Source of the DNA: Allostella sp. ATCC 35155
Lineage (GTDB): Bacteria; Pseudomonadota; Alphaproteobacteria; ATCC43930; Allostellaceae
Direction: 5' to 3'
Assembly: GCA_006738865.1 (NCBI GenBank)
Contig: AP019701.1
Coordinates: forward strand, 5,219,974-5,283,973
Length of the DNA stretch: 64,000 bases
Translations under genes and position numbers: made by a program
Part shown: piece after piece, positions 23,003-64,000 of the stretch
Numbering within the stretch: the stretch's first letter is position 1
Layout: the number at the start of each line of letters is the position of its first letter
Notes under the pieces: generated by a model
Told to the model about the DNA's origin: nothing
The model's database searches: none
What the model saw: only the letters and a program-made list of their open reading frames with translations

Positions 23003-23242
23003 GTGTTCGACCCCGATGCTGCAATCTTGCGGAAGCACTCGGTCATGATCGCCGGCCATCGGACCAGCATTTCCCTGGAGGCCGCCTTCTGGGAGGGGCT
23101 GCGCCGGATCGCGGTCGGTGACGGCCGTTCGGTTGCCTCCCTCGTGGCCGAGATCGATCGCCGGCGAACGGGGAACCTCTCCGGCGCGATCCGCGTCTTC
23201 GTCCTGCAGCGCGCGATCCGGGGCGCGCTCGCCGGCAACTGA
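23003..23242 (+). CDS. Ribbon-helix-helix domain protein
   Basis: A 79-residue small protein starting at GTG 23003 with an AGGAG site seven bases upstream. The sequence KHSVMIAGHRTSISLEAAFW followed by EGLRRIA is the pattern of the RHH_4 family: a beta strand with alternating residues (RTSISL), then the helices carrying SVASLVAEID. RHH_4 proteins are putative DNA-binding regulators common in alphaproteobacteria. It sits 20 bases after the fumarase stop and five bases before the next start, so it is probably co-transcribed with both. Confidence 0.8.
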   Translation: MFDPDAAILRKHSVMIAGHRTSISLEAAFWEGLRRIAVGDGRSVASLVAEIDRRRTGNLSGAIRVFVLQRAIRGALAGN

Positions 23243-23247
23243 GAGCG

Positions 23248-24234
23248 ATGATCGACGAATCCGCTGAGCGGCCTCCGTCCGCACGCCGCCCCATCCTTGC
23301 GCCCGCCGATGCGGAGATGATCCGTCAGGTTCGGGTGCTGATCGACGAAGATCGCTTCGACGAAGCCTTGACCGCGGTCGAGCGCATGTCGTCGCGCCCG
23401 CAGCTGCGCTGGGTGGGCCGCCGCCTCATCGCCGCGAGCCGTCATGCGGAGCGGCTCGGCTTCGCCCCGGCCGAGCAGACGCGCCGCGCCCTGGGCACGC
23501 TGCTGGCGGACATCCACAGCCAGGACCGGCCGGTGCCCCACAACGAAGGCGGGGCGATGATCGTGGAGCGGGCGGGGGCGGAGCAGGCGGTCATCGTCTT
23601 CTCCGGCAACGAGCATGTGCCGTTCGCCCACGTCATTCTCCAGAGCTATCTGCGACGCCGGCCGTGTCACTCGATCTATGTCACCGACCGACGCCAGCTG
23701 TTCGGCGTCGGCGGCCTGCCCGGCCTGGGGGCGGATTTCCCCGAGTCGGTTCGCAGCCTGCGTGCCGTCTGTGATCGCCTCGGTGCCAAACGGCGGTTCT
23801 GCTTCGGCTTTTCGGGGAACGGCTATGCCGCGATGCGCCATGCCGTGGAACTCGATGCCGATGGCGTTCTGGCCTTCTCGCCGCCGACCCGTCTCGACCT
23901 CGAGCCCGAGAAGGTCGCCGCCGTCGAGATGATCCGGCGCCTTCATGACCATGTGCCGCACATGGCCGAGGATCTGAAGCGCATCTACCTGGAGAGCCGG
24001 CGACTCCCCGCCACGACCATCGTCTATGGCGCGGCCAGCAATTCCGACACTCGATATGCCCTCCGGATGCGGTCGGTGCCCAACGTCCGGCTGATCCCGA
24101 TTCCGGGTTTCGCCAACCATGATTCGCTCAGCGTCTCGATCGTCTCGGGCAAGCTCGCTGGAATGCTCGACCTGATGCTCGCGGGCCGTGCCGTCGATCA
24201 CGCTCCGGTGGCCGGCGACGGGGCGGCCAACTAG
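23248..24234 (+). CDS. Alpha/beta-hydrolase-like protein of unknown function (paralogue of 47091-47960)
   Basis: A 328-residue cytoplasmic protein with no signal peptide. After a helical N-terminal segment (about 1-100) comes an alpha/beta-fold core: strand VIVFSGNEHVPF, a nucleophile-elbow-like CFGFSGNGYAAMRHAVEL and a C-terminal PIPGFANHDSLS that would supply the histidine. The same order of motifs is found in the protein at 47091-47960, so the two are paralogues within this window. Acyl- or ester-hydrolase activity is an inference only. It overlaps the convergent gene at 24231 by four bases. Confidence 0.6.
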   Translation: MIDESAERPPSARRPILAPADAEMIRQVRVLIDEDRFDEALTAVERMSSRPQLRWVGRRLIAASRHAERLGFAPAEQTRRALGTLLADIHSQDRPVPHNEGGAMIVERAGAEQAVIVFSGNEHVPFAHVILQSYLRRRPCHSIYVTDRRQLFGVGGLPGLGADFPESVRSLRAVCDRLGAKRRFCFGFSGNGYAAMRHAVELDADGVLAFSPPTRLDLEPEKVAAVEMIRRLHDHVPHMAEDLKRIYLESRRLPATTIVYGAASNSDTRYALRMRSVPNVRLIPIPGFANHDSLSVSIVSGKLAGMLDLMLAGRAVDHAPVAGDGAAN

Positions 24235-43236: not shown

Positions 43237-43899
43237 ATGACATCGCACACGGTTCTCCTCGACCTCGACGGCACGCTCACCGATTCCCGGCCGGGAATCG
43301 TCGCATGCTACCACGCGGCATTGCGGTCGTTGGGCCATGAGCCGGACCCCGCCATCGACCTCACCTTCGTGATCGGGCCGCCGCCGGAAGAGATCATGCC
43401 GCAGGTTCTGGCCCGCTATGGCGACGACCGTTCGCTGGAGGCGGTCGCGCTCTACCGCGAGCACTACGCCCAGGGCGGGCTCTTCCAGAACTCCGTCTAT
43501 GACGGCATCCCCGAGGCGCTGGCGGCGCTGGCGGAGGCCGGGTGCGTGCTCTACGTCGCCACGGCCAAGCGGACGGTGTTCGCCCGCCGCATCCTCGACC
43601 ATTTCGGGCTCTCGCCCGCCTTCCGGCGGATCTACGGGTCGGAACCGGGCGGCGCGCTCGACCGCAAGGGCGATCTCATCGCGCACATCCTGGCGAACGA
43701 GCCGATCGCTCCGGAGGGGACGATCATGGTCGGCGATCGCCATCACGATATCTCCGGGGCGCGGCAGAACGGGTTGCCCGCGATCGGCGTCGCCTGGGGC
43801 TATGGCGGCCCCGAGGAGCTGGAACGCGCCGGCGCCGACCGCATCGCCGGATCGCCGGCCGACCTCGCGGCCGCGGTTTCCTATCTCCGGCGGACGTGA
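43237..43899 (+). CDS. HAD-family phosphatase, phosphoglycolate phosphatase-like
   Basis: A 220-residue HAD hydrolase. Motif I is LLDLDGTLTDSRPG, motif II lies in VLYVATAKRT, motif III is the conserved Lys in GALDRKGDLI, and motif IV is MVGDRHHDISGARQNG. The cap (residues about 18-80) is the alpha-helical C1 type of Gph/YjjG proteins. It removes phosphate from a small metabolite, possibly 2-phosphoglycolate. The 3' end overlaps the convergent binding-protein gene by 19 bases. Confidence 0.87.
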   Translation: MTSHTVLLDLDGTLTDSRPGIVACYHAALRSLGHEPDPAIDLTFVIGPPPEEIMPQVLARYGDDRSLEAVALYREHYAQGGLFQNSVYDGIPEALAALAEAGCVLYVATAKRTVFARRILDHFGLSPAFRRIYGSEPGGALDRKGDLIAHILANEPIAPEGTIMVGDRHHDISGARQNGLPAIGVAWGYGGPEELERAGADRIAGSPADLAAAVSYLRRT

Positions 43900-45488
43900 T
43901 GGGCGAGCGTGTACTCGTCGGTCCGCCCGGCATAGTCGATGTCGGGCCGCATCGCCCAGCTGTGGAGGTTGTGCAGCAGCGGCACGAAGCCGACATCCTC
44001 CACCACCTCCCGCGTCGCACGCCGCAGCACCTCCTCGGCGCGCGCGGGATCGGCCGTCGCCAGCGCCTCGTCGTAGAGAGCGTCGAGCCGCGGGTTGGAG
44101 TAGCGGCCGCGATTGCCGGCGCCGCGTCCACGGTCCTTGTCCCAGGTGAGCAGGCTGAACGTCATGAAGGATGACGGTTCGCCGGTCACGATCCCGTAGC
44201 CGGTCAGCAGGAAGCTGTATTCCAGCCGCCCGGAGGCGGGAAAGAAGGCCGCCGGCGGGACGGTCACCACATTGGTCTGGATGCCGATGCGGGCCAGCAT
44301 CTGGCCGATCGCCTGGGCGATCTGGGCGTCGTTCGGATAGCGGTTGCGCGGCCCGTGCAACGTCAGCCCGAACCCGTCGGGATATCCCGCCTCCGCCAGC
44401 AGTCGCCGCGCCGCGGCCGGATCGAACCGGTCGGCCGCCAGGTCCGCGATGTGGCCGACGAAGCCTTCCGGCATGATCTGGCCGGTGGCGGCGGCATGGC
44501 CCTCCATCACGTGATCGACGATGGCGCGCCGATCGATCGCCTTGGAGATCGCCTGCCGGACCCGGATGTCGTCGAAGGGGTTGCGGTCCAGCGGCCGCCC
44601 ATTCTTGTCTACGACCAGCAGCGGCTGGTCACGATGCCGATCCATCGCCAGGAAAATGATCCGGGTCGTCACCGAATCGCGCACCCGGACCTTCGGGTTC
44701 CGCTTCAGCCCGGCGACGTCCGCCAGCGGGACATAGTCGATCAGGTCGACATGGCCGGAGAGGAGCGCCGCCACCCGCGCGCTGTTGTTGGCGATCGGCA
44801 CGATCACCACCCGCCGCCAGGCCGGCTTCTCGCCGTGATAACCGTCGAACCGCTCGAGGACGAGCTGTTCGCCGCGCTTCCACTCGACGACCCGGAAGGG
44901 GCCGGTTCCGGCGGCGCCCTTGCCGGCGTTGATCTGCTCGGACGTCGCCAGGAGCGGGCCGGAACGGTTCTCCGGCAGCGCCGCCGATTCCAGCGCCGTC
45001 CTCGACATGATCGAGATGCCGGACAGGTAGGACGGCAGGAGCGTGAAGAGACCGTCGGTCCGCAGCCGGACGGTGTGCGGGTCGACGATCTCGATCGCGC
45101 GGATGCGGCGGGTATAGCCGGTCAGCGGCGACGGGCTGTTCGGCACCGCGGCGACCCGTTCGATCGACGCCTTGACGTCGGCCGCGGTCAGGGGGCTGCC
45201 GTCGTGGAAGCGCACGTCGCGGCGCAGCCGAAACTCCCAGGTCGAATCGTCGATCAATGCCCAGGATTCGGCGAGGCCGGGCCGGATCCGCAGCGTCTCG
45301 TCGCGCTCGACCAGCGCGCCGTAGACATGCATCGCCGTCGCCAGGTTGGCGCTGAGGCTGGCGAAGTGCGGGTCGAGCGAGGTGGTTTCGACCTGGACGC
45401 CGATGCGCAGTTCCTGGGCCCGCGCGGGCAATGCGGTCAGGATCAGCGCCAGCAGCAGGGCGCCGGCGCGAAACGCTGCAGTCGACAT
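43881..45488 (-). CDS. Peptide/nickel-type ABC transporter substrate-binding protein
   Basis: A 535-residue family-5 solute-binding protein. The signal peptide is FRAGALLLALILTALPARAQ. The mature protein has SLDPHFASLSANLATAMHVY and GLAESWALIDDSTWEFRLRR followed by DVRFHDGSPLTAADV, which are DppA/OppA signatures. The start at 45488 has AAGGA upstream; ATG 45497 would add three residues. No permease or ATPase gene adjoins it. It diverges from an amidohydrolase, so it may bind the compound that enzyme hydrolyses. Confidence 0.9.
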   Translation of the reverse strand: MSTAAFRAGALLLALILTALPARAQELRIGVQVETTSLDPHFASLSANLATAMHVYGALVERDETLRIRPGLAESWALIDDSTWEFRLRRDVRFHDGSPLTAADVKASIERVAAVPNSPSPLTGYTRRIRAIEIVDPHTVRLRTDGLFTLLPSYLSGISIMSRTALESAALPENRSGPLLATSEQINAGKGAAGTGPFRVVEWKRGEQLVLERFDGYHGEKPAWRRVVIVPIANNSARVAALLSGHVDLIDYVPLADVAGLKRNPKVRVRDSVTTRIIFLAMDRHRDQPLLVVDKNGRPLDRNPFDDIRVRQAISKAIDRRAIVDHVMEGHAAATGQIMPEGFVGHIADLAADRFDPAAARRLLAEAGYPDGFGLTLHGPRNRYPNDAQIAQAIGQMLARIGIQTNVVTVPPAAFFPASGRLEYSFLLTGYGIVTGEPSSFMTFSLLTWDKDRGRGAGNRGRYSNPRLDALYDEALATADPARAEEVLRRATREVVEDVGFVPLLHNLHSWAMRPDIDYAGRTDEYTLAHHVRRR

Positions 45489-45569
45489 GCGGAACATCCT
45501 TCGCCAGTTGTTCACGAAGCAGGCCGGCACGCCTATACGGTTCGTCTCCGCCTGTCCATGAGGGGCTCG

Positions 45570-47075
45570 ATGGCTCACCAGCATCTCGTCGTCCGCAACG
45601 GCCTCGTGGTCGACATCGCCGGGCATCGCGCGGAGGCGCGCGACATTCGCGTACTCGACGGGCGCATCGCCGAGATCGGCGCGCCGGGCATGGAAGCGCC
45701 GGCCGACGCCGATCGCATCGACGCCACCGACCGGTTGCTGATCCCGGGGCTCGTCAATGCCCACACGCACAGCCATGCGAACCTGCCGCGCAGCCCCGGC
45801 GACAAGTGGACCCTCGAACTGGCCCTCCATCTCAATCCCTCCATCCGCGGCAACCAGACCCTGGAGGACAAATACCTCTCGGCCCTGCTGGGCGCCGTCG
45901 AGATGCTGAGCAAGGGCTGTACCGCCTGCTACGATCTCTTCTACGAATTTCCCAGCCCGTCGCGCGAAGGGCTGGAGGCGGTGGCCCAGGCCTACAGCGA
46001 CGCCGGCATGCGCGCGGTGGTCGCGCCGCTGATGGCCTCGCGGTCCTTCTATGCCGCCATTCCGGGCCTGCTCGACGTATTGCCCGAGGAGGCGCGGCCG
46101 AGCGCGCGCGCCGGCGACGACGGCGCGGCCGCACTTGCCGAGGCCGAGTTGGCGTTGAAGGGCTGGCGCTTCGACCGGGACCGGGTGCGCATGGCCGTGG
46201 CGCCGACCATCCCGCTCCACTGCTCGGACGGATTCTGGCAGCGCGCGGCGGCGCTGGCCCGCGACCATGGCGTCGGCCTCCACACGCATCTCGCCGAGTC
46301 GAAGGTGCAGGCGGTTGCCGGCATGAAGCGCTACGGGCGCACGCTGACGCATCACCTCGATGGCCTCGGGATCCTCGGCCCGGACTTCACCGCGGCGCAC
46401 GGTGTCTGGCTCGATGACGAGGACATGAAGCGGCTGGCCGGCGCCGGGGCCGCGGTCGCCCACAATCCGGCCAGCAACATGCGCTACGGCTCCGGCATGG
46501 CCGCGGTGCGGCGCATGGTCGACCACGGGCTCACCGTCGGGATCGGCACGGATTCGCGCACTTGCTCCGACAATCTCAACATGTTCGAGGCGATGCGCCT
46601 CGCGTCCTTCACGTCGCGCGTGCGCGGCCCCGACTACGAGCGCTGGCTCGCGGCCGAGGACGTCTTCGCGATGGCGACCGAAGGGAGTGCTCGGGCGCTG
46701 GGGTTCGCCGGCCGCATCGGCCGCATCGCTCCCGGCTACGAGGCCGACATCGTCTTTCTCGACCGCAGGAACCTCAACTACGTCCCGCTCAACGATCCGA
46801 CCCTGCAGATCGTGAACGCCGAGGACGCGACCGGCGTCCATTCGGTGATGGTCGGCGGCCGCATGGTCGTGGAGGGCCGGCGGATGGTCGCGATCGACCT
46901 CGACCGCCTGATCGACCGCTGCGAGCAGGCGATGGATCGGCTGCGCGGCGCCAATGCCGATACCCATCGCACGGCCCGCGCCCTGGAGCGGCTCGTCGGG
47001 TCGTTCTGCGCGGCGATGGCGTCGGAGCCCTATCATGTCCACCGCTTCGTGGACGATCACGAGCATCCTCACTGA
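45570..47075 (+). CDS. Amidohydrolase of the ATZ/TRZ, cytosine-deaminase-like group
   Basis: A 501-residue metal-dependent amidohydrolase. Metal and catalytic residues are seen in NAHTHSHANLP, LHTHLAESK, AAHGVWLDDED and GTDSRTCSDNLNMFEAM. The N-terminal (VVRNGLVVDIAG) and C-terminal (GYEADIVFLDRR) beta-sandwich parts are present. The group includes chlorohydrolases and guanine, SAH and MTA deaminases; the substrate cannot be assigned. The ATG at 45570 has GAGGGG upstream. A CTATAC at 45533-45538 is a likely -10 box in the divergent space shared with the binding-protein gene. Confidence 0.88.
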   Translation: MAHQHLVVRNGLVVDIAGHRAEARDIRVLDGRIAEIGAPGMEAPADADRIDATDRLLIPGLVNAHTHSHANLPRSPGDKWTLELALHLNPSIRGNQTLEDKYLSALLGAVEMLSKGCTACYDLFYEFPSPSREGLEAVAQAYSDAGMRAVVAPLMASRSFYAAIPGLLDVLPEEARPSARAGDDGAAALAEAELALKGWRFDRDRVRMAVAPTIPLHCSDGFWQRAAALARDHGVGLHTHLAESKVQAVAGMKRYGRTLTHHLDGLGILGPDFTAAHGVWLDDEDMKRLAGAGAAVAHNPASNMRYGSGMAAVRRMVDHGLTVGIGTDSRTCSDNLNMFEAMRLASFTSRVRGPDYERWLAAEDVFAMATEGSARALGFAGRIGRIAPGYEADIVFLDRRNLNYVPLNDPTLQIVNAEDATGVHSVMVGGRMVVEGRRMVAIDLDRLIDRCEQAMDRLRGANADTHRTARALERLVGSFCAAMASEPYHVHRFVDDHEHPH

Positions 47076-47090
47076 GAATGCGCGCGGCCC

Positions 47091-47960
47091 TCAGGTGGCG
47101 GATTCGAGCAGGTCGGCAAGGAAGGACCGCAACCGGCCGGCGCGGCCCAGCTCGACCAGGAGGTTGTGTGCGGCGACCCCGGCGACAGGCTGCAACCGGG
47201 CCGGCACCAGGTCCGCCAGCGCGCAGGCCTTTTCGGCGTCACGATGGCAGTCCGCGCCATAGGTCAGCCGGATCTCCGGCAAGGGACGGGAGCGGCGGGC
47301 GAGCAGCGTCTCGAACGGCGCGAAGGTCAGGCCCTTCGGACCCATCCGCGGATCCTCGAGGGTGGGGCTGGTCGCGCAGATGCCGATCCCGACCTCGGCA
47401 TCCAGCCCGATCGCCGCGGCCACGGCGGCGAGCCCGCCGCCGCTGGTGCCCAGCACGATCGTCCGGCGAAAGCGGCTACGGTCGACGAGCCGGCCGAGGG
47501 CGGCCAGCAGCGACGGGAAATCCTCGGCCAGCGGCGCGATGCCCCGCAGGTAGTAGCAGCGCGAGAAATCCCGCAGGACGAGGAACGCGAAGCGGTCGGC
47601 CGGGCAATGCTGCAGGAAGACCGTGATCGGAAGCATCAGCCGCTGCGCGTCGCCGGCGAATGCCACGACGAGGGTGCGATCCTCGGGGGCGCTGGCATGA
47701 TCGCGATAGAGATGAACGCCGGGCGCCAGCTCCTCCTTGCCGTAGGGCTGGATCGGCAGGCCGCTGGCGGCGAGCATCGCCCGGGTCCGCGCAATCCAGC
47801 GCATGGCCTGGAAGGGCAGCGGCTCGCGCTCGGAATGGTCGGCGATCGCCGCGAACTCCGCCGGCGGAGAGAATGTCTCGATCGAGATGTGGAGGCGGTT
47901 GAAATCGTTCTCGGTCCGACACTCGGCGAGCGCGCGGAGATAGAGGTCGATCGGGCGCAC
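47091..47960 (-). CDS. Alpha/beta-hydrolase-like protein in the carrier-protein cluster
   Basis: A 289-residue protein, paralogue of the one at 23248-24234. Both share an N-terminal helical region, a strand of the form VVAFAGDAQRLMLPITVFLQ (here), the loop LVLRDFSRCYYLRGIAPLAE, a nucleophile-elbow TIVLGTSGGGLAAVAAAIGL and a late VAAHNLL that could give the histidine. GxSGGG with a preceding strand supports a hydrolase or acyl-transfer role. Placed 11 bases after the ACP gene, it may release or transfer the carrier-bound acyl group. The GTG start at 47960 is uncertain. Confidence 0.65.
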   Translation of the reverse strand: MRPIDLYLRALAECRTENDFNRLHISIETFSPPAEFAAIADHSEREPLPFQAMRWIARTRAMLAASGLPIQPYGKEELAPGVHLYRDHASAPEDRTLVVAFAGDAQRLMLPITVFLQHCPADRFAFLVLRDFSRCYYLRGIAPLAEDFPSLLAALGRLVDRSRFRRTIVLGTSGGGLAAVAAAIGLDAEVGIGICATSPTLEDPRMGPKGLTFAPFETLLARRSRPLPEIRLTYGADCHRDAEKACALADLVPARLQPVAGVAAHNLLVELGRAGRLRSFLADLLESAT

Positions 47961-47971
47961 CGAAAGCGGCT

Positions 47972-48238
47972 TCAGGCGTGGTCGGCGACGACCCGGCGCG
48001 CGAGGGCGCCCAGCGAGCGGAAGGAATCGAGATCGTCGGGTGTCAGCGACACGCCGGTCTCGACCTCGATCGCGATGCAGAGTTCCATCCGTGCGAGGCT
48101 GTCCATGTCGAGCCGGTCGAATGACAGGTCGTCCTCCCCCGACAGGAAGGGGCCGCGGATCGCCGGCTCGTAGATCGCGGCGACCGAGCCGATCTCCAGG
48201 GCGTCGACCAGAATCTGACGGACTCGCTCGATCTCCAT
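47972..48238 (-). CDS. Acyl carrier protein
   Basis: An 88-residue four-helix carrier protein. The phosphopantetheine site is Ser47 in FDRLDMDSLARMELCIAIE, the classic D-S-L motif. The protein has an unusually long loop before it (EPAIRGPFLSGEDDLSF), so it is not the housekeeping AcpP. It is encoded between a TauD-type dioxygenase gene (7-base gap) and the hydrolase-like gene and is probably loaded by the adenylating enzyme at 49380. Confidence 0.87.
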   Translation of the reverse strand: MEIERVRQILVDALEIGSVAAIYEPAIRGPFLSGEDDLSFDRLDMDSLARMELCIAIEVETGVSLTPDDLDSFRSLGALARRVVADHA

Positions 48239-48245
48239 TGCCTCG

Positions 48246-49289
48246 CTATCCCCGTGCGCGTTCGTCGAAATAGAAGCCGCGAATGCGCCCGGGGCGGCAG
48301 TCGCCGAAGGTGGCGGCGCGCTCCGGCGCAAGCGGCCGGCTGTCCGCCACCGCCAGCCAGGAGCGCAGCAACAGGCGTCCGCTGTCGGCACTGTCCTGGT
48401 ACGCCGTGCGGGCATGCAGCACGACGTGGTTGTTCACGAGCTGCAGGTCGCCCGGCTCCAGCCGGAGCGAGAAATGGAACTGCGGATCCTCGGCGAGGGT
48501 CTCGAACAGGTCGAGGGCCTCGCGCTCCATCGGCTGCAGCGGATGCGCTCCGGGATAGCGATGCCCGGCTTCGATCTGGAAGCGGTTGTAGCAGCAGGAG
48601 AGACGGCCACCCTCGACCGAGAACACCGGCTGGCGAAAGAACGGCGCCTGTCCCGGCACCGGCAGTTCCGGTACGCGCCAGGACAGGTCGCGATGGAGCA
48701 GCGCCAGCAGGTCCGGGCGCTCGCGGGCCATCGCGTCATGGATTGCGACGCTGCTCGCAATCTTGGTGATGCCGCCGGCCTCGGCCGGGCGGACCACCAG
48801 GAGCGCCAGCACATCGCAGCGGTCGGTGTGGAAGGTCAGGCGCTCGCGGCTGCCGTACCAGCGGCCGATCTGCTGCCGGGCGGCCGTTGCGTCGTGCGCC
48901 ACGGCCATCAGATGGTCGCGTTCCCGGGTCTGCGGCAGTGGCGTCCCCAGGCTGCGGCAGAAGGACCAGAAGCGCTGCCGCACGATCTCCGACCCGCCGT
49001 GCAACGGAAAGCCGCGCAGGATGACGAAGCCGGGACCGCGTTCCAGGCGGGCAGCCGCGGCAACGGCAAGGCCGCCCCGGGCGCCGTCGGCCGGTGCGCC
49101 GTAGAGTGCCCGGAACTGGTCGGGGTCGCCGCCGTCCCCGACCGGAAGTTCCCGCTCGTCCACGGCGAACGACCAGAAGTCGGGATCGTCGGCATCGCGG
49201 GCGAGCCAGGGACGGTCGTCGACGCGCGGCACGGCAGGCCGCGCAGGCGCTTCGGAAGCGGAAATCTGGGGCGTCGGCGCGGCGGTCAT
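48246..49289 (-). CDS. TauD/TfdA-family Fe(II)/2-oxoglutarate dioxygenase
   Basis: A 347-residue dioxygenase. The iron-binding triad is His154 and Asp156 in LTFHTDRCDVL and His292 in NNHVVLHARTAYQD; Arg309 (RLLLRSWLA) would bind 2-oxoglutarate. The body resembles clavaminate-synthase-like TauD proteins (GFVILRGFPL, RSLGTPLPQ). The first 19 residues (MTAAPTPQISASEAPARPA) are low-complexity and contain the inverted-repeat element, so GTG 49232 is an alternative start that would leave that element untranslated. It precedes an ACP gene and diverges from an adenylating enzyme, suggesting oxidation of a carrier-bound acyl group. Confidence 0.87.
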   Translation of the reverse strand: MTAAPTPQISASEAPARPAVPRVDDRPWLARDADDPDFWSFAVDERELPVGDGGDPDQFRALYGAPADGARGGLAVAAAARLERGPGFVILRGFPLHGGSEIVRQRFWSFCRSLGTPLPQTRERDHLMAVAHDATAARQQIGRWYGSRERLTFHTDRCDVLALLVVRPAEAGGITKIASSVAIHDAMARERPDLLALLHRDLSWRVPELPVPGQAPFFRQPVFSVEGGRLSCCYNRFQIEAGHRYPGAHPLQPMEREALDLFETLAEDPQFHFSLRLEPGDLQLVNNHVVLHARTAYQDSADSGRLLLRSWLAVADSRPLAPERAATFGDCRPGRIRGFYFDERARG

Positions 49290-49369
49290 GCTAGTCCCCG
49301 AAACTAGCGTCCGCGGCCGACCGGGCGCAATCGCCATCGACGACGCCCCAGATTTCCGCTCCCGAAGCG
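49248..49369. repeat. 29-nt inverted repeat bracketing the divergent promoter
   Basis: Arms 49248-49276 and 49341-49369 match as inverted copies at 28 of 29 positions, separated by 64 bases. The right arm lies 10 bases before the adenylating-enzyme ATG. The left arm lies within the first codons of the dioxygenase as annotated. A smaller palindrome GCTAGT-N7-ACTAGC (49290-49308) sits in the space between. The match is read base by base; its role is inferred to be regulatory. Confidence 0.85.
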
Positions 49370-49379
49370 AGGGTCCGCC

Positions 49380-50777
49380 ATGTTCATCGACCAGCTCCTC
49401 CGCCATGCCGGGCAGAGGCCGACGGCCGCCGCCCTGGTGCGGGGCGGGCAGACCGTCACTTACGCCGAACTCGCGGAGCGGGTCGAGGCCGATGCGGCAA
49501 GCCTCCGGCGCCAGGGCATCGCCCCCGGCGACGTCGCCGGACTGACCATCGGCGACGAGATCGCCCATCTCGTCGCCTGCCTCGCGCTGATGCGGCTGGG
49601 CGTGGTGCAGATCACGCTCGGGACGCAGGATCCGCCGGTGCTGCGCGATCGACTCTGCGCGCGGGTCGGCGTGACCTGCCATGTGACCGCCGGCCCGACG
49701 GTCGAACGGGCAGCACCGGCCGGCGCGCCGCCGCAGCTGCTCCCGAACGAGCGGCCGGCGATCATCCTGCCGGGCTCGGGCACCACCGGCGACGTCAAGC
49801 TGGTCTCGCTCAGCCTCGATCAGATCGCCATCCAGGCCGCGATCGCCTATGCCGACTATGGCGATGCCCGCATCCTCCAGCTCGCCCCGGTCGAGTTCAA
49901 CAACGGCAAGCGGCTGCGCCTCTATTGCCTCCACCATGGCGGCGCCTGCGTCTTCCGCGATGCGCAGGACCCACCGCTCGCGGTCCTCTGCGGCGAGCAG
50001 GGCGTCACCTGGTTCGACCTCAGCGCCTACCATGCCCGCGACCTGATCGCCGCCAGCGCGACCCATGGCGGTCTCCCGGACGGGACGTCGGTGCGCATCG
50101 GGGGATCGCGCGTCTCGACCGGACTGCGCGGGGATTTCCGCGAGCGCGTCACGCCGCGCCTGTTCATCTCCTATGGTGCGACCGAGATCGGCGGCATGCC
50201 CGGCATCTGCATGGCCGCGCCCGAGCAGCAGACGCCCGACGCCGAGCTGGTCGGGCGGCCGCTGGCGGGAATGGAGGTGGAGATCGTCGACGAGGCCGGC
50301 CGGCCGGTGCCGCCGGGCACCGTCGGCGAGGTCCGCATCCGCGCGCCTGGCATGGTCACGCATTATATTGGCGATGCGGAAGCGACGCGGCGCTGCTTCC
50401 GCGACGGCGGCTGGTTCCAGCCGGGCGACCTGATGTCGCTGTCGGCGGACCGGATGCTGACCTTCCACGGCCGCGTCGACGACATGATCATCCTCAACAG
50501 CATCAACATCTTTCCGGGCGAGATCGAGCGTGCGCTGGAGGGCCATCCGCTGGTCGCGGAAGCCGCCGCCTACCCCGTCGCGTCGGGCGTCCACGGGCAG
50601 ATCCCGGTGGCGGCCGTCGAACTCCGGCCGGGAGCGGCGATCGAAGCGCGGGCGCTGATGATCTATGCGCGCGAGCGTCTGGGCCTGCGGGCGCCGCGCC
50701 GGATCACCATCGTCCCGGAGCTGCCGCGCAGCGGCCAGGGCAAGGTCCTGAAGCGCGTGCTGGCCGGCCCTGCCTAG
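49380..50777 (+). CDS. ANL-superfamily acyl-adenylating enzyme
   Basis: A 465-residue AMP-forming ligase. Motifs seen are the P-loop ILPGSGTTGDVKLVS, YGATEIGGM, DGGWFQPGDLM, GRVDDMIILNSINIFPGEIE and the C-terminal PRSGQGKVLKR with the catalytic lysine. It has no terminal carrier or condensation domain, so it probably loads a carboxylic acid onto the stand-alone ACP encoded across the divergent promoter. GAGGG lies before the ATG. The stop abuts the convergent TPR gene directly. Confidence 0.9.
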   Translation: MFIDQLLRHAGQRPTAAALVRGGQTVTYAELAERVEADAASLRRQGIAPGDVAGLTIGDEIAHLVACLALMRLGVVQITLGTQDPPVLRDRLCARVGVTCHVTAGPTVERAAPAGAPPQLLPNERPAIILPGSGTTGDVKLVSLSLDQIAIQAAIAYADYGDARILQLAPVEFNNGKRLRLYCLHHGGACVFRDAQDPPLAVLCGEQGVTWFDLSAYHARDLIAASATHGGLPDGTSVRIGGSRVSTGLRGDFRERVTPRLFISYGATEIGGMPGICMAAPEQQTPDAELVGRPLAGMEVEIVDEAGRPVPPGTVGEVRIRAPGMVTHYIGDAEATRRCFRDGGWFQPGDLMSLSADRMLTFHGRVDDMIILNSINIFPGEIERALEGHPLVAEAAAYPVASGVHGQIPVAAVELRPGAAIEARALMIYARERLGLRAPRRITIVPELPRSGQGKVLKRVLAGPA

Positions 50778-52559
50778 TCAGTCGCGCTCCCTGTCGGCGC
50801 ACCAGCGACGCCAGAGGTCGCGCAGCGCCGCCTCGAATGCCGGCGTGAATCGGCGACCGTCGGCGAGCGGCGTCGCGGCCATCCGTGTGCGCTGGCCGGC
50901 GCGCAGCTGCGACAGCCGCTCGGGATCGGCGGCGAGCGCCGCGGCGACGGCGACATACGCGTCCTCGTCGCCGACGATCCATTCGGTCCGGCCGATCGTG
51001 GCAAGGAAGGCTGCGGTCTGCCGGGCCACCATCCGATCCCCCGCCAGGGTCACCACCGGAACGCCCATCCACAAGGCTTCGACGGAAGTCAGACCGCCGG
51101 AATAGGGGAAGGGGTCGAGCGCGACATCGACCGCGCCGTAACGCTCCAGCATCGTCCGGTGCGGGTCGCGCCCCTCCAGGATCAGGCGCTCGGCGGCGAT
51201 GCCGCGCGCGGCGAAGCGCGCCCGATGGCTGGCGGCGACGGCGGGATCGCCCAGCGTCTTGCTTTTGAGCAGGAGACGCGCATCGGGCACCGTCGCCAGC
51301 AGCCGGGACCACAGCGCGACCACGCGGTCGTTGATCTTCGACAGGTTGTTGAAGCAGCCGAAGGTGGGCGGTGCGCCGGCCGCGCTCGGCGGCGGCGCCG
51401 GCTCGGGCATGTCCGCCGGCGGCGCGTAGCACATGGCGCCCGCCGCCACGCGCACCACGGTCTCGGTGAAGTGGCGCTCCTCGCCCGGCGGCACCTCGGA
51501 GGCATCGGTCAGCAGATGTCCGATCGCCGGCAGGCCGGTGGTGTCGATCCAGCCGATCCAGCTTGCCTGCACCGGGGCCGGGCGGAGTGCGAAGGCGGCA
51601 AGGCGATTGCCGGTGGTGTGCCCCGCCAGGTCGATCAGGATGTCGATGCCGTCCGCGCGGATCTGGGCGGCCAGGTTCTGGTCCGACAGTCCGGCGACCG
51701 GGCGCCAGCGGTCGACCATGCCGCGGATGCGCGCCGTGACGTCGTCTTCGGCCCGGCGACTGGAGTAGGCGGTGACGTGGAAGCGGTCGCGGTCCCGCGA
51801 TGCCAGCGCCGGCATCAGGAACCAGCCGACCGGATGCCGGCAGAAGTCGGGGGAGACGTAGCCGAGGTTGAGACGGCGCTCCGGGTCGGCCGGGTTGGCG
51901 TAGGGGGCCGGCGATGCAGCACGCCCATGCTGCTCGCCCCAGCGCCGGTGGTCCCGCGCCAGTTCCTCCGGCGTCCGCTCCGGGTCGTAGTGCAGCGCGA
52001 GCAGGCGGTTGCTGGCGAGCGCGGCGTCGGCCGGCGCCAGACGTATCGCCGTGTCGAACGCGGCAAGCCCCTCCGCGATCTCCCCGACCGCGACCAGCGC
52101 CTGGGCGAGGTTGTTCCAGGCATCGACATGCCCGGGCGCCGATCGCGTCGCCCGCCGGTAGTGCCCGATCGCCTCTGCGAGCGCATTGGCGGCCTGGAGG
52201 TCGCAGGCGAGGTTGTAGTGGGCCTGGGCATGATCCGGGTCGAGGTCGAGCGCCCGGCGCTCGGCGGCGATCGCGCCGTCGCGATCGCCGGTGAGGCCGA
52301 GCGCCAGCCCGAGATCGACCAGCATGTCCGCCGTCGGCTGCAGGGCGGCGGCCCGCCGCAGCAGCGCGACCGCCGGTCCGGCATGGCCGGTCCGCAGCGC
52401 CACCGCGGCGAGCCCGTGCAGCGCCCGTGCATCGTCGCCGCGGCGGCCCAGCCGCGCACGGAAGAGCGCTTCCGCCTCCGCCAGGCGGCCGGCGCGCAGC
52501 GCCGCGTCGGCCTTGCGCAGGTCGGGCGGAAGGTCACCGGGGCGTGGCGGGCGGGCCAT
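50778..52559 (-). CDS. TPR-containing GT41 (O-GlcNAc transferase-like) glycosyltransferase
   Basis: A 593-residue protein. Residues about 15-215 hold five to six TPR repeats (e.g. AQAHYNLACDLQAANALAEA, VDAWNNLAQALVAVGEIAEG). The C-terminal half is the SPINDLY/OGT catalytic domain: GYVSPDFCRHPVGWFLMPAL, DILIDLAGHTTGNRL, FGCFNNLSKINDRVV and VALDPFPYSGGLTSVEALWM. Such enzymes add a sugar to Ser/Thr of target proteins such as flagellins or surface proteins. Donor and target are unknown. It sits 8 bases downstream of the MetX-like gene. Confidence 0.9.
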   Translation of the reverse strand: MARPPRPGDLPPDLRKADAALRAGRLAEAEALFRARLGRRGDDARALHGLAAVALRTGHAGPAVALLRRAAALQPTADMLVDLGLALGLTGDRDGAIAAERRALDLDPDHAQAHYNLACDLQAANALAEAIGHYRRATRSAPGHVDAWNNLAQALVAVGEIAEGLAAFDTAIRLAPADAALASNRLLALHYDPERTPEELARDHRRWGEQHGRAASPAPYANPADPERRLNLGYVSPDFCRHPVGWFLMPALASRDRDRFHVTAYSSRRAEDDVTARIRGMVDRWRPVAGLSDQNLAAQIRADGIDILIDLAGHTTGNRLAAFALRPAPVQASWIGWIDTTGLPAIGHLLTDASEVPPGEERHFTETVVRVAAGAMCYAPPADMPEPAPPPSAAGAPPTFGCFNNLSKINDRVVALWSRLLATVPDARLLLKSKTLGDPAVAASHRARFAARGIAAERLILEGRDPHRTMLERYGAVDVALDPFPYSGGLTSVEALWMGVPVVTLAGDRMVARQTAAFLATIGRTEWIVGDEDAYVAVAAALAADPERLSQLRAGQRTRMAATPLADGRRFTPAFEAALRDLWRRWCADRERD

Positions 52560-61981: not shown

Positions 61982-64000
61982 ATGGCGCGAACCCACCGGC
62001 CGCCGCGCTGGGAGACGCTCGCCGCCGAAGGGCTGGCCCGGCGTCGGGCGGGGGACGGAGCGGGAGCGATCGAGGCCTATCGGCGTGCGGCCGCGGTGGC
62101 GGGCGCGCCGGCTGCCGTCTTCTTCAACCTCGGCAACGCGCTGTTCGATGCCGGCTGCTGGGCCGATGCGGAGGGGCCGCTGTCGCGCGCTGTCGCGCTC
62201 GACCCGGCGATGGCGGCCGCGCGCATGCAGCGCGCCCGCTGCCATGCGCGGCAGGGGCGCTACGAAGAGGCGATCGGCGAATTCGCCGAGGTCCTGCGGC
62301 GGGAGCCCGCCAACTTCACCGCCTGCCTGGAGGGGGGGCACGCGCTGCGGCAGCTGGGGCGCCTCGACGCGGCGATCGATCGGTATCGGGCGGCCGCTGC
62401 GGCCGCCCCTGCGCGGTTCGAGGCGCAACTGGCGCTGGCCCGGGCGCTGGAGGAGGCCGGACGACCCGACGAGGCGGCGCGTCACTATCATCGCGCGCTG
62501 CCGCCGGCCGAGGCGGCCGGCGCCGGCGCCTGGCAGGTCCACTGGCACATGGCGCGCTATCGCCGCGAGCGGGGCGCCAACGCGCCGGCGCTGGAGGCGC
62601 TGCGGCAGGCCCTGCTGGCGGCGGACGCGTCGGCCACGGGCGCGGATGCGGACAGCCGCGCGCGGATGACCATCGACCTCGCCGACCTTCTGCTGCGCCT
62701 GGGACTGCGGCCGGAGGGGCTGGAGGCGGCACAGGCCGCGGCGACCTCCGAGGCGACGCTGACGCTGCTCTCCGACATGCTGTTCCGCCACAACCTCTGG
62801 CAGGAGGCTCAGGCGGTGCTGGAGGAGAACCTGCGCCGGCATCCCGACAGCGCCACCGCCTGCTGGAACCTCGCCCATCTCCTGGCCGAGAGCTGGCAAC
62901 TGCAGCCCGCACTGCGGCTGCTCGACCGCGCCGAGGCGCTGGGGCCCCAGCCCGGCGCGCGCGCGATGCGGGCCTCGCTCGCCGCGCGCGGCGGCGAGGC
63001 CGAGGAGGCGCTCCGGCTCTATCGCGAACTGGCGGAGGCCGAGGGCGGACATTCGAGCATGGCCTCCAGCGCCGCCATGGCGTCGCTCTACAGCGACCGG
63101 CTGTCGGCGGCGGATGTGGCCGCGCTGCACCGCCGCCTCTTCGCGCCGCTCGGTCATGACGCGCGGCCGCGGGAGAGCTTTCCGAACCCGCGGGTGCCCG
63201 ACCGGCCGCTGCGGATCGGCTTCGTGACGCCGGACCTGCACGCCCAGCACCCGGTCGCGGTCTTCCTGCTGCCGGTACTCGGGCGGCTCGACCGCACCCG
63301 GTACGCCGCCACGATCTACTGCACCGGCACGATCCAGGACGAGGAGACGCGCAAGGCGCGCGAGCGGGTTGCCCGCTGGGTTCAGGCCGATGCCTGGACC
63401 GACATCCGGCTCGCCGCGCAGATCGCGGCCGACGGGATCGACCTGCTGGTCGACCTCAGCGGCCATACCGCCCGCAACCGCAAGGGCCTGTTCGGGCAGC
63501 GGGCGGCGCCGGTGCAGGCGACCTTCCTCGGCTATCCCGGCTCGACCGGCATCCCCAACATGGACTGGATCGTGGCCGACCCCGTCGTGGTGCCGGAGCA
63601 CGATGCGGCATTGTGCAGCGAGCGGGTGCTGCGCCTGCCGCACGCGGTCTTCTGCTTCGCGCCCGAGGACGATTATCCGCTGCCCGATTTCGGGCGCCCC
63701 GCGGCGGTGGCGCGGCCGCTGACCTTCGGATCCTTCAACAACCTGCCGAAGCTGACGCCGACCACCGTGCGGCTATGGGCGGCGGTGCTGGCCGCGCTGC
63801 CCGAGGCGCGCCTGCTGCTGAAGGCGCCGAGCTTCCAGGATGGCGGCGCGGCCGAGCATGTGCGCGGACGCTTCTGGGCGGCCGGCGTCGCGCCGGAGCG
63901 GATCGAGTGCCGCGGCCCGACGGGTCTTGAGCAGATGATGGCGGAGTATGCCGACGTCGACATCGCGCTCGATCCGGTCCCCTACAATGGCGGCACCACG
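61982..64000 (+). CDS. TPR-containing GT41 glycosyltransferase, 3' end outside the window
   Basis: 673 residues are visible and the frame is open at the window end. TPR repeats fill about residues 10-390 (VFFNLGNALFDAGCWADAEG, AMQRARCHARQGRYEEAI-like copies). The SPINDLY/OGT domain starts about residue 405: LRIGFVTPDLHAQHPVAVFL, DLLVDLSGHTARNRKG, FGSFNNLPKLTPTTV and VDIALDPVPYNGGTT. It is the second GT41 enzyme in the window and is longer in TPRs than the one at 50778. The start ATG 61982 follows GGGGAT; the preceding TIGR03032-like gene ends 17 bases upstream. Confidence 0.9.
   Translation, partial: MARTHRPPRWETLAAEGLARRRAGDGAGAIEAYRRAAAVAGAPAAVFFNLGNALFDAGCWADAEGPLSRAVALDPAMAAARMQRARCHARQGRYEEAIGEFAEVLRREPANFTACLEGGHALRQLGRLDAAIDRYRAAAAAAPARFEAQLALARALEEAGRPDEAARHYHRALPPAEAAGAGAWQVHWHMARYRRERGANAPALEALRQALLAADASATGADADSRARMTIDLADLLLRLGLRPEGLEAAQAAATSEATLTLLSDMLFRHNLWQEAQAVLEENLRRHPDSATACWNLAHLLAESWQLQPALRLLDRAEALGPQPGARAMRASLAARGGEAEEALRLYRELAEAEGGHSSMASSAAMASLYSDRLSAADVAALHRRLFAPLGHDARPRESFPNPRVPDRPLRIGFVTPDLHAQHPVAVFLLPVLGRLDRTRYAATIYCTGTIQDEETRKARERVARWVQADAWTDIRLAAQIAADGIDLLVDLSGHTARNRKGLFGQRAAPVQATFLGYPGSTGIPNMDWIVADPVVVPEHDAALCSERVLRLPHAVFCFAPEDDYPLPDFGRPAAVARPLTFGSFNNLPKLTPTTVRLWAAVLAALPEARLLLKAPSFQDGGAAEHVRGRFWAAGVAPERIECRGPTGLEQMMAEYADVDIALDPVPYNGGTT

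Follow-up and report, generated by a model that had tools for sequence, protein, structure and literature searches.

A conserved ANL-ACP-hydrolase gene set with an added TauD dioxygenase in Allostella: a possible minimal carrier-protein module for one acid

The nikkomycin beta-hydroxyhistidine module is one in which an acid is oxidized by a P450, NikQ. Release by a discrete thioesterase has been described for NikP2 and Bhp (PMC4147253), and 2OG enzymes that act on tethered substrates have precedents in SyrB2, CytC3 and the TauD domains of NRPSs (PMC8407142, PMC8949500), with KtzD named as a cryptic halogenase (PMC8407142) and SyrC shuttling chlorothreonine between carriers (PMC8949500). ScoE and BesD are 2OG enzymes that work on untethered substrates (PMC7949033, PMC8407142), the substrate of ScoE being untethered CABA (PMC7949033). 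An earlier note on the DNA analyzed here had cited isonitrile lipopeptide clusters as an example of a TauD-type enzyme acting on a carrier-bound chain, and that analogy needs correction in this detail, since ScoE does not take CABA in carrier-bound form (PMC7949033).

Here, we describe four genes at 47091-50777 of the window, by which we mean the whole 64,000-nucleotide stretch of contig AP019701.1 that was analyzed, from Allostella sp. ATCC 35155 (Table 1). The host genome consists of one contig of 5.34 Mb and has three relatives in its genus. We hypothesize, with a probability of roughly 0.45, that the genes encode a minimal thiotemplate module for one acid, in which the ANL enzyme loads the ACP, the TauD enzyme oxidizes the acid on the carrier and the hydrolase releases it. 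A small polar carboxylic acid would be adenylated by the ANL enzyme, which would pass the acyl group from the acyl-AMP to the phosphopantetheine arm of the ACP at Ser47; the dioxygenase, using Fe(II), O2 and 2-oxoglutarate, would hydroxylate or otherwise oxidize it there; and the serine hydrolase, as a thioesterase, would cleave the thioester and free the oxidized acid, which would be the product or pass to enzymes encoded elsewhere. Each of these reactions is an inference, as are the type of substrate and whether oxidation precedes release, and this last order is the weakest step of the mechanism. No published description of this gene set was found in the part of the literature covered by our search.

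Table 1. Features of the cassette and of its left flank, in window coordinates.
Feature	Position	Strand	Remarks
Family-5 extracellular solute-binding protein, flanking	43881-45515	-	missing together with the cassette in G003
Amidohydrolase (PF01979), flanking	45555-47075	+	missing together with the cassette in G003; kin alone elsewhere
Alpha/beta-hydrolase-fold serine hydrolase, probable thioesterase or acyltransferase	47091-47960	-	Ser172-Asp240-His264; GTG start, 288-289 aa
Stand-alone ACP	47972-48238	-	88 aa; PF00550, E 1.6e-9; phosphopantetheine site Ser47
TauD-family Fe(II)/2-oxoglutarate dioxygenase	48246-49289	-	347 aa; PF02668, E 5.8e-31
Gap between the divergent TauD and ANL starts, 90 bp	49290-49379		promoter(s) expected, none recognized
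Stand-alone AMP-forming acid ligase (ANL superfamily)	49380-50777	+	465 aa; PF00501, E 1.1e-43; PF13193, E 1.6e-12

The four genes of the earlier note, and the residues it named in the ACP, the dioxygenase and the ANL enzyme, were confirmed by Pfam matches for these three proteins, by motifs and by a codon-position G+C like that of real genes (third-position G+C of 0.86-0.90); the catalytic residues of all four proteins are intact. The TauD, ACP and hydrolase genes are co-directional, with intergenic gaps of 7 and ~11 bp, and the ANL gene diverges from them. The further claim that one divergent promoter serves all four was not borne out: the scan of the 90 bp between the divergent starts found no sigma-70-like site, and a shared promoter is possible. 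The base composition of the block resembles that of its flanks (G+C 70.4% vs. 69.5 and 72.1%) and thus gives no sign of recent import. A plasmid origin was rejected, neither the hydrolase nor the ANL enzyme having a match among 72,556 plasmids.

The sister species G001 has the complete cassette in unchanged order, with the same left flank on one side and the MetX-like gene on the other, at identities of 74% (ANL), 62% (TauD), 64% (ACP) and 50% (hydrolase). In a class-wide sample of 337 genomes, a close ANL was found in only one other genus, a distant alphaproteobacterial one, where G208 and G304 have an ANL-ACP-hydrolase operon whose neighboring genes overlap by 4 nt. The same trio appeared at L039, L040 and L041 in a scan of 85,000 species genomes, and in these three and in G208 and G304 the ANL is 39-42% and the hydrolase about 31-34% identical to the window proteins; with the same length and the same identities, L041 looks like the G304 contig itself. 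L041 and L040 were deposited as Kuenenia and Rhizobium MAGs and look mislabeled, their trio and flanks being as in genus g51. No TauD or other oxygenase was seen beside the trio in the distant genus. In G081 the gene after the same ANL-ACP pair encodes an FSH1-type serine hydrolase with no detectable similarity to that of the window, which indicates that the hydrolase step was kept while the protein was replaced. A serine hydrolase, together with ANL and ACP, therefore makes up the conserved core, and the TauD enzyme is lineage-specific.

The cassette is missing in G002, where no close hydrolase or ANL was found, and in G003, and the TauD gene lies outside the distant clusters, all of which would fit unrelated genes that are neighbors by chance. 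Synteny that persists in two genera despite low sequence identity makes such a coincidence hardly credible, and for ANL, ACP and hydrolase it was rejected on the recurrence of the trio in the distant genus. Since three of the four genes occur together in distant relatives, the gene set is real, and we conclude that it is a conserved, uncharacterized small module. The scattering of homologs that the earlier note named as counter-evidence was thus not what a search for this neighborhood in other alphaproteobacteria returned, and the conserved synteny it called for exists, complete in G001 and as the ANL-ACP-hydrolase trio in the distant genus.

The genome of G003 lacks the whole 43881-50777 block, and its HAD-phosphatase gene is directly followed by glycosyltransferase and MetX-like genes, so that within the genus the presence of the amidohydrolase and of the solute-binding protein follows that of the cassette. 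Of 289 class genomes, 17 contain close kin of the amidohydrolase, and none of the eleven inspected has a cassette gene or a matching binding protein within 1.5 kb. It is doubtful that either flanking protein belongs to the pathway. On the other side, next to the ANL gene, 50778-52559 encodes a TPR protein with a family-41 glycosyltransferase (OGT/SPINDLY-like); such a gene lies beside MetX in G003 and was not seen between ANL and MetX in G001, and a second one starts near 63128 of the window.

The carrier scored 38.3 bits against PF00550 (cut-off 20.8), which together with Ser47 in an MDSL motif identifies it as an ACP, and the host genome carries a PPTase gene (PF01648). The ANL protein has SGTTG at 133-137, YGATE at 265-269, GD at 349-350, GR at 364-365 and the C-terminal Lys455; with motifs A3, A5, A7, A8 and A10 intact it is a member of the ANL superfamily. 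It might nevertheless be an acyl-CoA ligase, the ACP belonging to another process, as would be in line with its best NCBIfam matches, which are mostly CoA ligases and all far below cut-off, and with the 15 ANL matches in the host genome at E 1e-30 or better, of which one is the window protein itself and the remaining ones are 29-37% identical to it and partly arranged in tandem arrays, with no ACP seen beside related ANLs of the genus among the neighborhoods read. Many of these ACP-less ANLs probably use CoA. However, overlapping ANL and ACP genes have been kept at 40% identity, and in a maximum-likelihood tree of 35 ANLs, including seven ACP-linked ones and 19 paralogs of the genus, the seven form one clade with support of 100/98, apart from the 19. 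The ANL-ACP link is thus phylogenetically coherent, which supports the earlier note's pairing of the two proteins, and ACP linkage as a trait of a single clade across two distant genera argues for the ACP as acceptor. We are fairly confident that the ANL enzyme loads the ACP, and we regard the CoA-ligase alternative as improbable.

Several loci with ANLs of this broad family were seen elsewhere. Four tandem stand-alone ANL genes with no ACP nearby lie at L136:6221-12245 in the same genome and at L042:7941-13862 in Marinimicrococcus flavescens; similar tandem pairs occur at L138, L143 and L145, some of them adjoining genes that resemble tripartite-tricarboxylate-type binding proteins. In G685 (L037:1-2931) an ANL is fused to a C-terminal ATP-grasp-like region of the cyanophycin-synthetase type and adjoins another gene of that kind.

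As for the acid that is activated, the position of PheA D235 (motif A4) is occupied by Asn174 here and in G001 and by Leu in the distant genus, according to an alignment with LgrA and 8xjz that is uncertain in this variable stretch. E172 had been taken for the D235 equivalent by eye and was dropped, because the profile alignment places N174 there. The protein therefore does not have the Asp of an alpha-amino-acid-activating NRPS adenylation domain, and a standard amino acid is not favored. FAALs are large proteins (over 550 aa) with a FAAL-specific insertion, whereas this ANL, at 465 aa, is about as short as the MenE-type ligases with which it aligns and is not a FAAL. Hence the suggestion that the product is a modified amino or fatty acid is not favored on either count. 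The other pocket positions are polar or charged (N175, R178, D213, R239 and S264), with Tyr, Lys, Arg, Tyr and Glu in their places in the distant genus. Judged from these residues, the pocket points to a small polar acid as substrate, not to a fatty acid or an ordinary alpha-amino acid, and suggests that the ANLs of the two genera would have different acid substrates.

The dioxygenase belongs to the TauD family, its His154-x-Asp156, His292 and Arg309 aligning with those of its nearest solved structures, 7n7v ("Predicted hydroxylase") and 5eqn (FrbJ), at E about 1e-44. Asp156 is present where SyrB2-type halogenases have Ala or Gly, and an Asp in the facial triad marks a hydroxylase-type rather than a halogenase-type TauD. 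FrbJ acts on a free phosphonate, and we know of no ACP partner for FrbJ or 7n7v. Related TauDs are common in the class (64 of 337 genomes with a two-sequence profile), and the eleven best outside the window, about 40% identical, all stand alone with no ACP beside them; a scan of genome contigs with TauD alone gave no match. TauD was accordingly discarded as an anchor of the system. The earlier note had counted the dioxygenase as a full part of the set, a view that its absence from the distant ANL-ACP-hydrolase clusters does not allow: it is an add-on outside the conserved core, probably recruited from the pool of stand-alone TauDs of the class, as its nearest kin stand alone.

Because these kin occur away from any ACP, the TauD enzyme may take the acid in free form, either ahead of loading or once it is released, with the ACP activating the acid for another purpose. 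This would also agree with FrbJ, the nearest named structure, and with ScoE and BesD, small-acid 2OG enzymes whose substrates are untethered. Nevertheless, the TauD gene lies just upstream of the ACP gene in the same direction, an order kept in G001, and carrier-bound Asp is the substrate of NRPS TauD domains (PMC8949500). We thus consider oxidation of a free acid rather unlikely and lean slightly towards the ACP-bound form as the substrate.

The hydrolase has no Pfam match over cut-off (best 12.2 bits) and none to the Pfam Thioesterase family (PF00975) up to E 1. An AF2 model from a four-sequence alignment (pLDDT 75, pTM 0.79) has an alpha/beta-hydrolase arrangement, and its structural neighbors (Foldseek, VIA-align) are mostly esterases with Z of 13-14, the best at Z 14.2 and rmsd 3.2 over 177 aligned residues. 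An alignment of seven family members, with identities as low as 23%, shows no variation at Ser172 (in GTSGGG), Asp240 or His264, which fit a putative Ser-Asp-His triad, and the predicted fold and the invariant residues would suit a type II thioesterase. A distant paralog (27% identity) lies at 23122-24231 of the window, not beside a recognized ACP.

With no oxygenase beside the distant trio, loading and release would be futile there unless the genome encodes a modifying enzyme at another site or the hydrolase works as a transferase. Transfer of the (oxidized) acyl group from the ACP to an alcohol, an amine or a second carrier, as by SyrC (PMC8949500), is for this reason the main rival for the last step: the distant genus keeps the genes for loading and release with no visible modifier. 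It would also be consistent with the occurrence of ACP-hydrolase pairs with other partners and with the fact that the alpha/beta-hydrolase fold also hosts acyltransferases. The Ser nucleophile, the listed structural neighbors, which are mostly esterases, and the FSH1-type serine hydrolase in its place in G081 nonetheless point the other way, and no acceptor is known. We therefore judge transfer unlikely, and conclude that the hydrolase probably releases the acyl group.

The hydrolase family was detected in 7 of 385 genomes at E 1e-15, several having an ACP before it and varying further genes. A second ACP with a directly adjacent hydrolase paralog (23-25% identity) was found at L025:9376-10685 in the host's own genome, L028:9423-10741, L130:3937-5273 and L126:6974-8247; this arrangement of ACP followed by hydrolase is a second copy in the host (G000), G001 and G002 and a copy in G319. 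Upstream of the pair in G000, G001 and G319 lies a gene for a ~200-aa protein with the motif TGxRxYxHGxDI and no Pfam family, and neither ANL nor TauD was found near these second pairs. In G739 (L127:6662-8847), a P450-like sequence (FGTGAHTCLG) stands just upstream of an ACP and a hydrolase relative; with a weak match (Pfam E 0.13, PDB P450s E 0.013) and an apparent split by a frameshift, it is a lead only. From these few loci one might speculate that minimal thiotemplate systems of a new class are built on ACP and serine hydrolase as a portable chassis with lineage-specific front ends, namely ANL and TauD here, ANL alone in the distant genus, a P450-like protein in G739 and the uncharacterized protein in the second copy of the genus and in G319. 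If so, each front end would make a different small oxidized or conjugated acid with no condensing enzyme.

Should the proposed mechanism hold, this would be among the smallest carrier-protein pathways, made of four discrete proteins, each of a size that allows it to be expressed and assayed alone, with neither a megasynthase nor a condensing enzyme beside them. The distant ANL-ACP-hydrolase operons offer natural comparisons with and without an oxygenase, which make it testable what purpose the carrier serves and how an oxygenase gets recruited to it.

Isonitrile clusters with ScoE share with the cassette an ANL, an ACP, a thioesterase and a TauD-like enzyme, but the thioesterase there is of the CmiS1/SAV606 type instead of an alpha/beta-hydrolase, and an NRPS follows; neither an NRPS nor a CmiS1/SAV606-type (hotdog) thioesterase is present among the neighbors at 43-54 kb of the window, so the locus is not an isonitrile (Sco) cluster. 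FrbJ and 7n7v, which have the His-x-Asp...His and Arg of the cassette TauD, are distant relatives only. SyrB1/SyrB2/SyrC of syringomycin and the TauD domains of siderophore NRPSs involve 2OG enzymes on a carrier-bound acid, as proposed here (PMC8949500, PMC8407142), although SyrB2 is a halogenase and the siderophore domains sit within megasynthases beside Asp-specific A domains. In kutzneride biosynthesis, KtzB/KtzN (A), KtzC (T) and KtzF (TEII) are discrete adenylating, carrier and release proteins like those of the cassette (PMC4147253), and KtzD is a 2OG-type enzyme like its TauD (PMC8407142); however, the kutzneride enzymes feed an NRPS, which the cassette does not have next door, and the cassette has Asn for the A4 Asp and keeps the facial-triad Asp in its TauD. 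Nikkomycin NikP1 (A-T)/NikQ/NikP2 and balhimycin Bhp follow the proposed course, the acid being adenylated, tethered to a carrier, oxidized and then released by a discrete thioesterase, the release by NikP2 and Bhp being the part described in PMC4147253, whereas the cassette has a separate ANL and ACP, a 2OG dioxygenase as oxidant, a hydrolase outside the named thioesterase families and no larger biosynthetic cluster around it. Thus the design of the cassette appears by analogy to resemble those of NikP1/NikP2 and KtzB/N/C/F (PMC4147253), from which it departs in that its four proteins are discrete, its hydrolase family is unassigned, its pocket does not resemble those of amino-acid-activating domains and no assembly line lies nearby.
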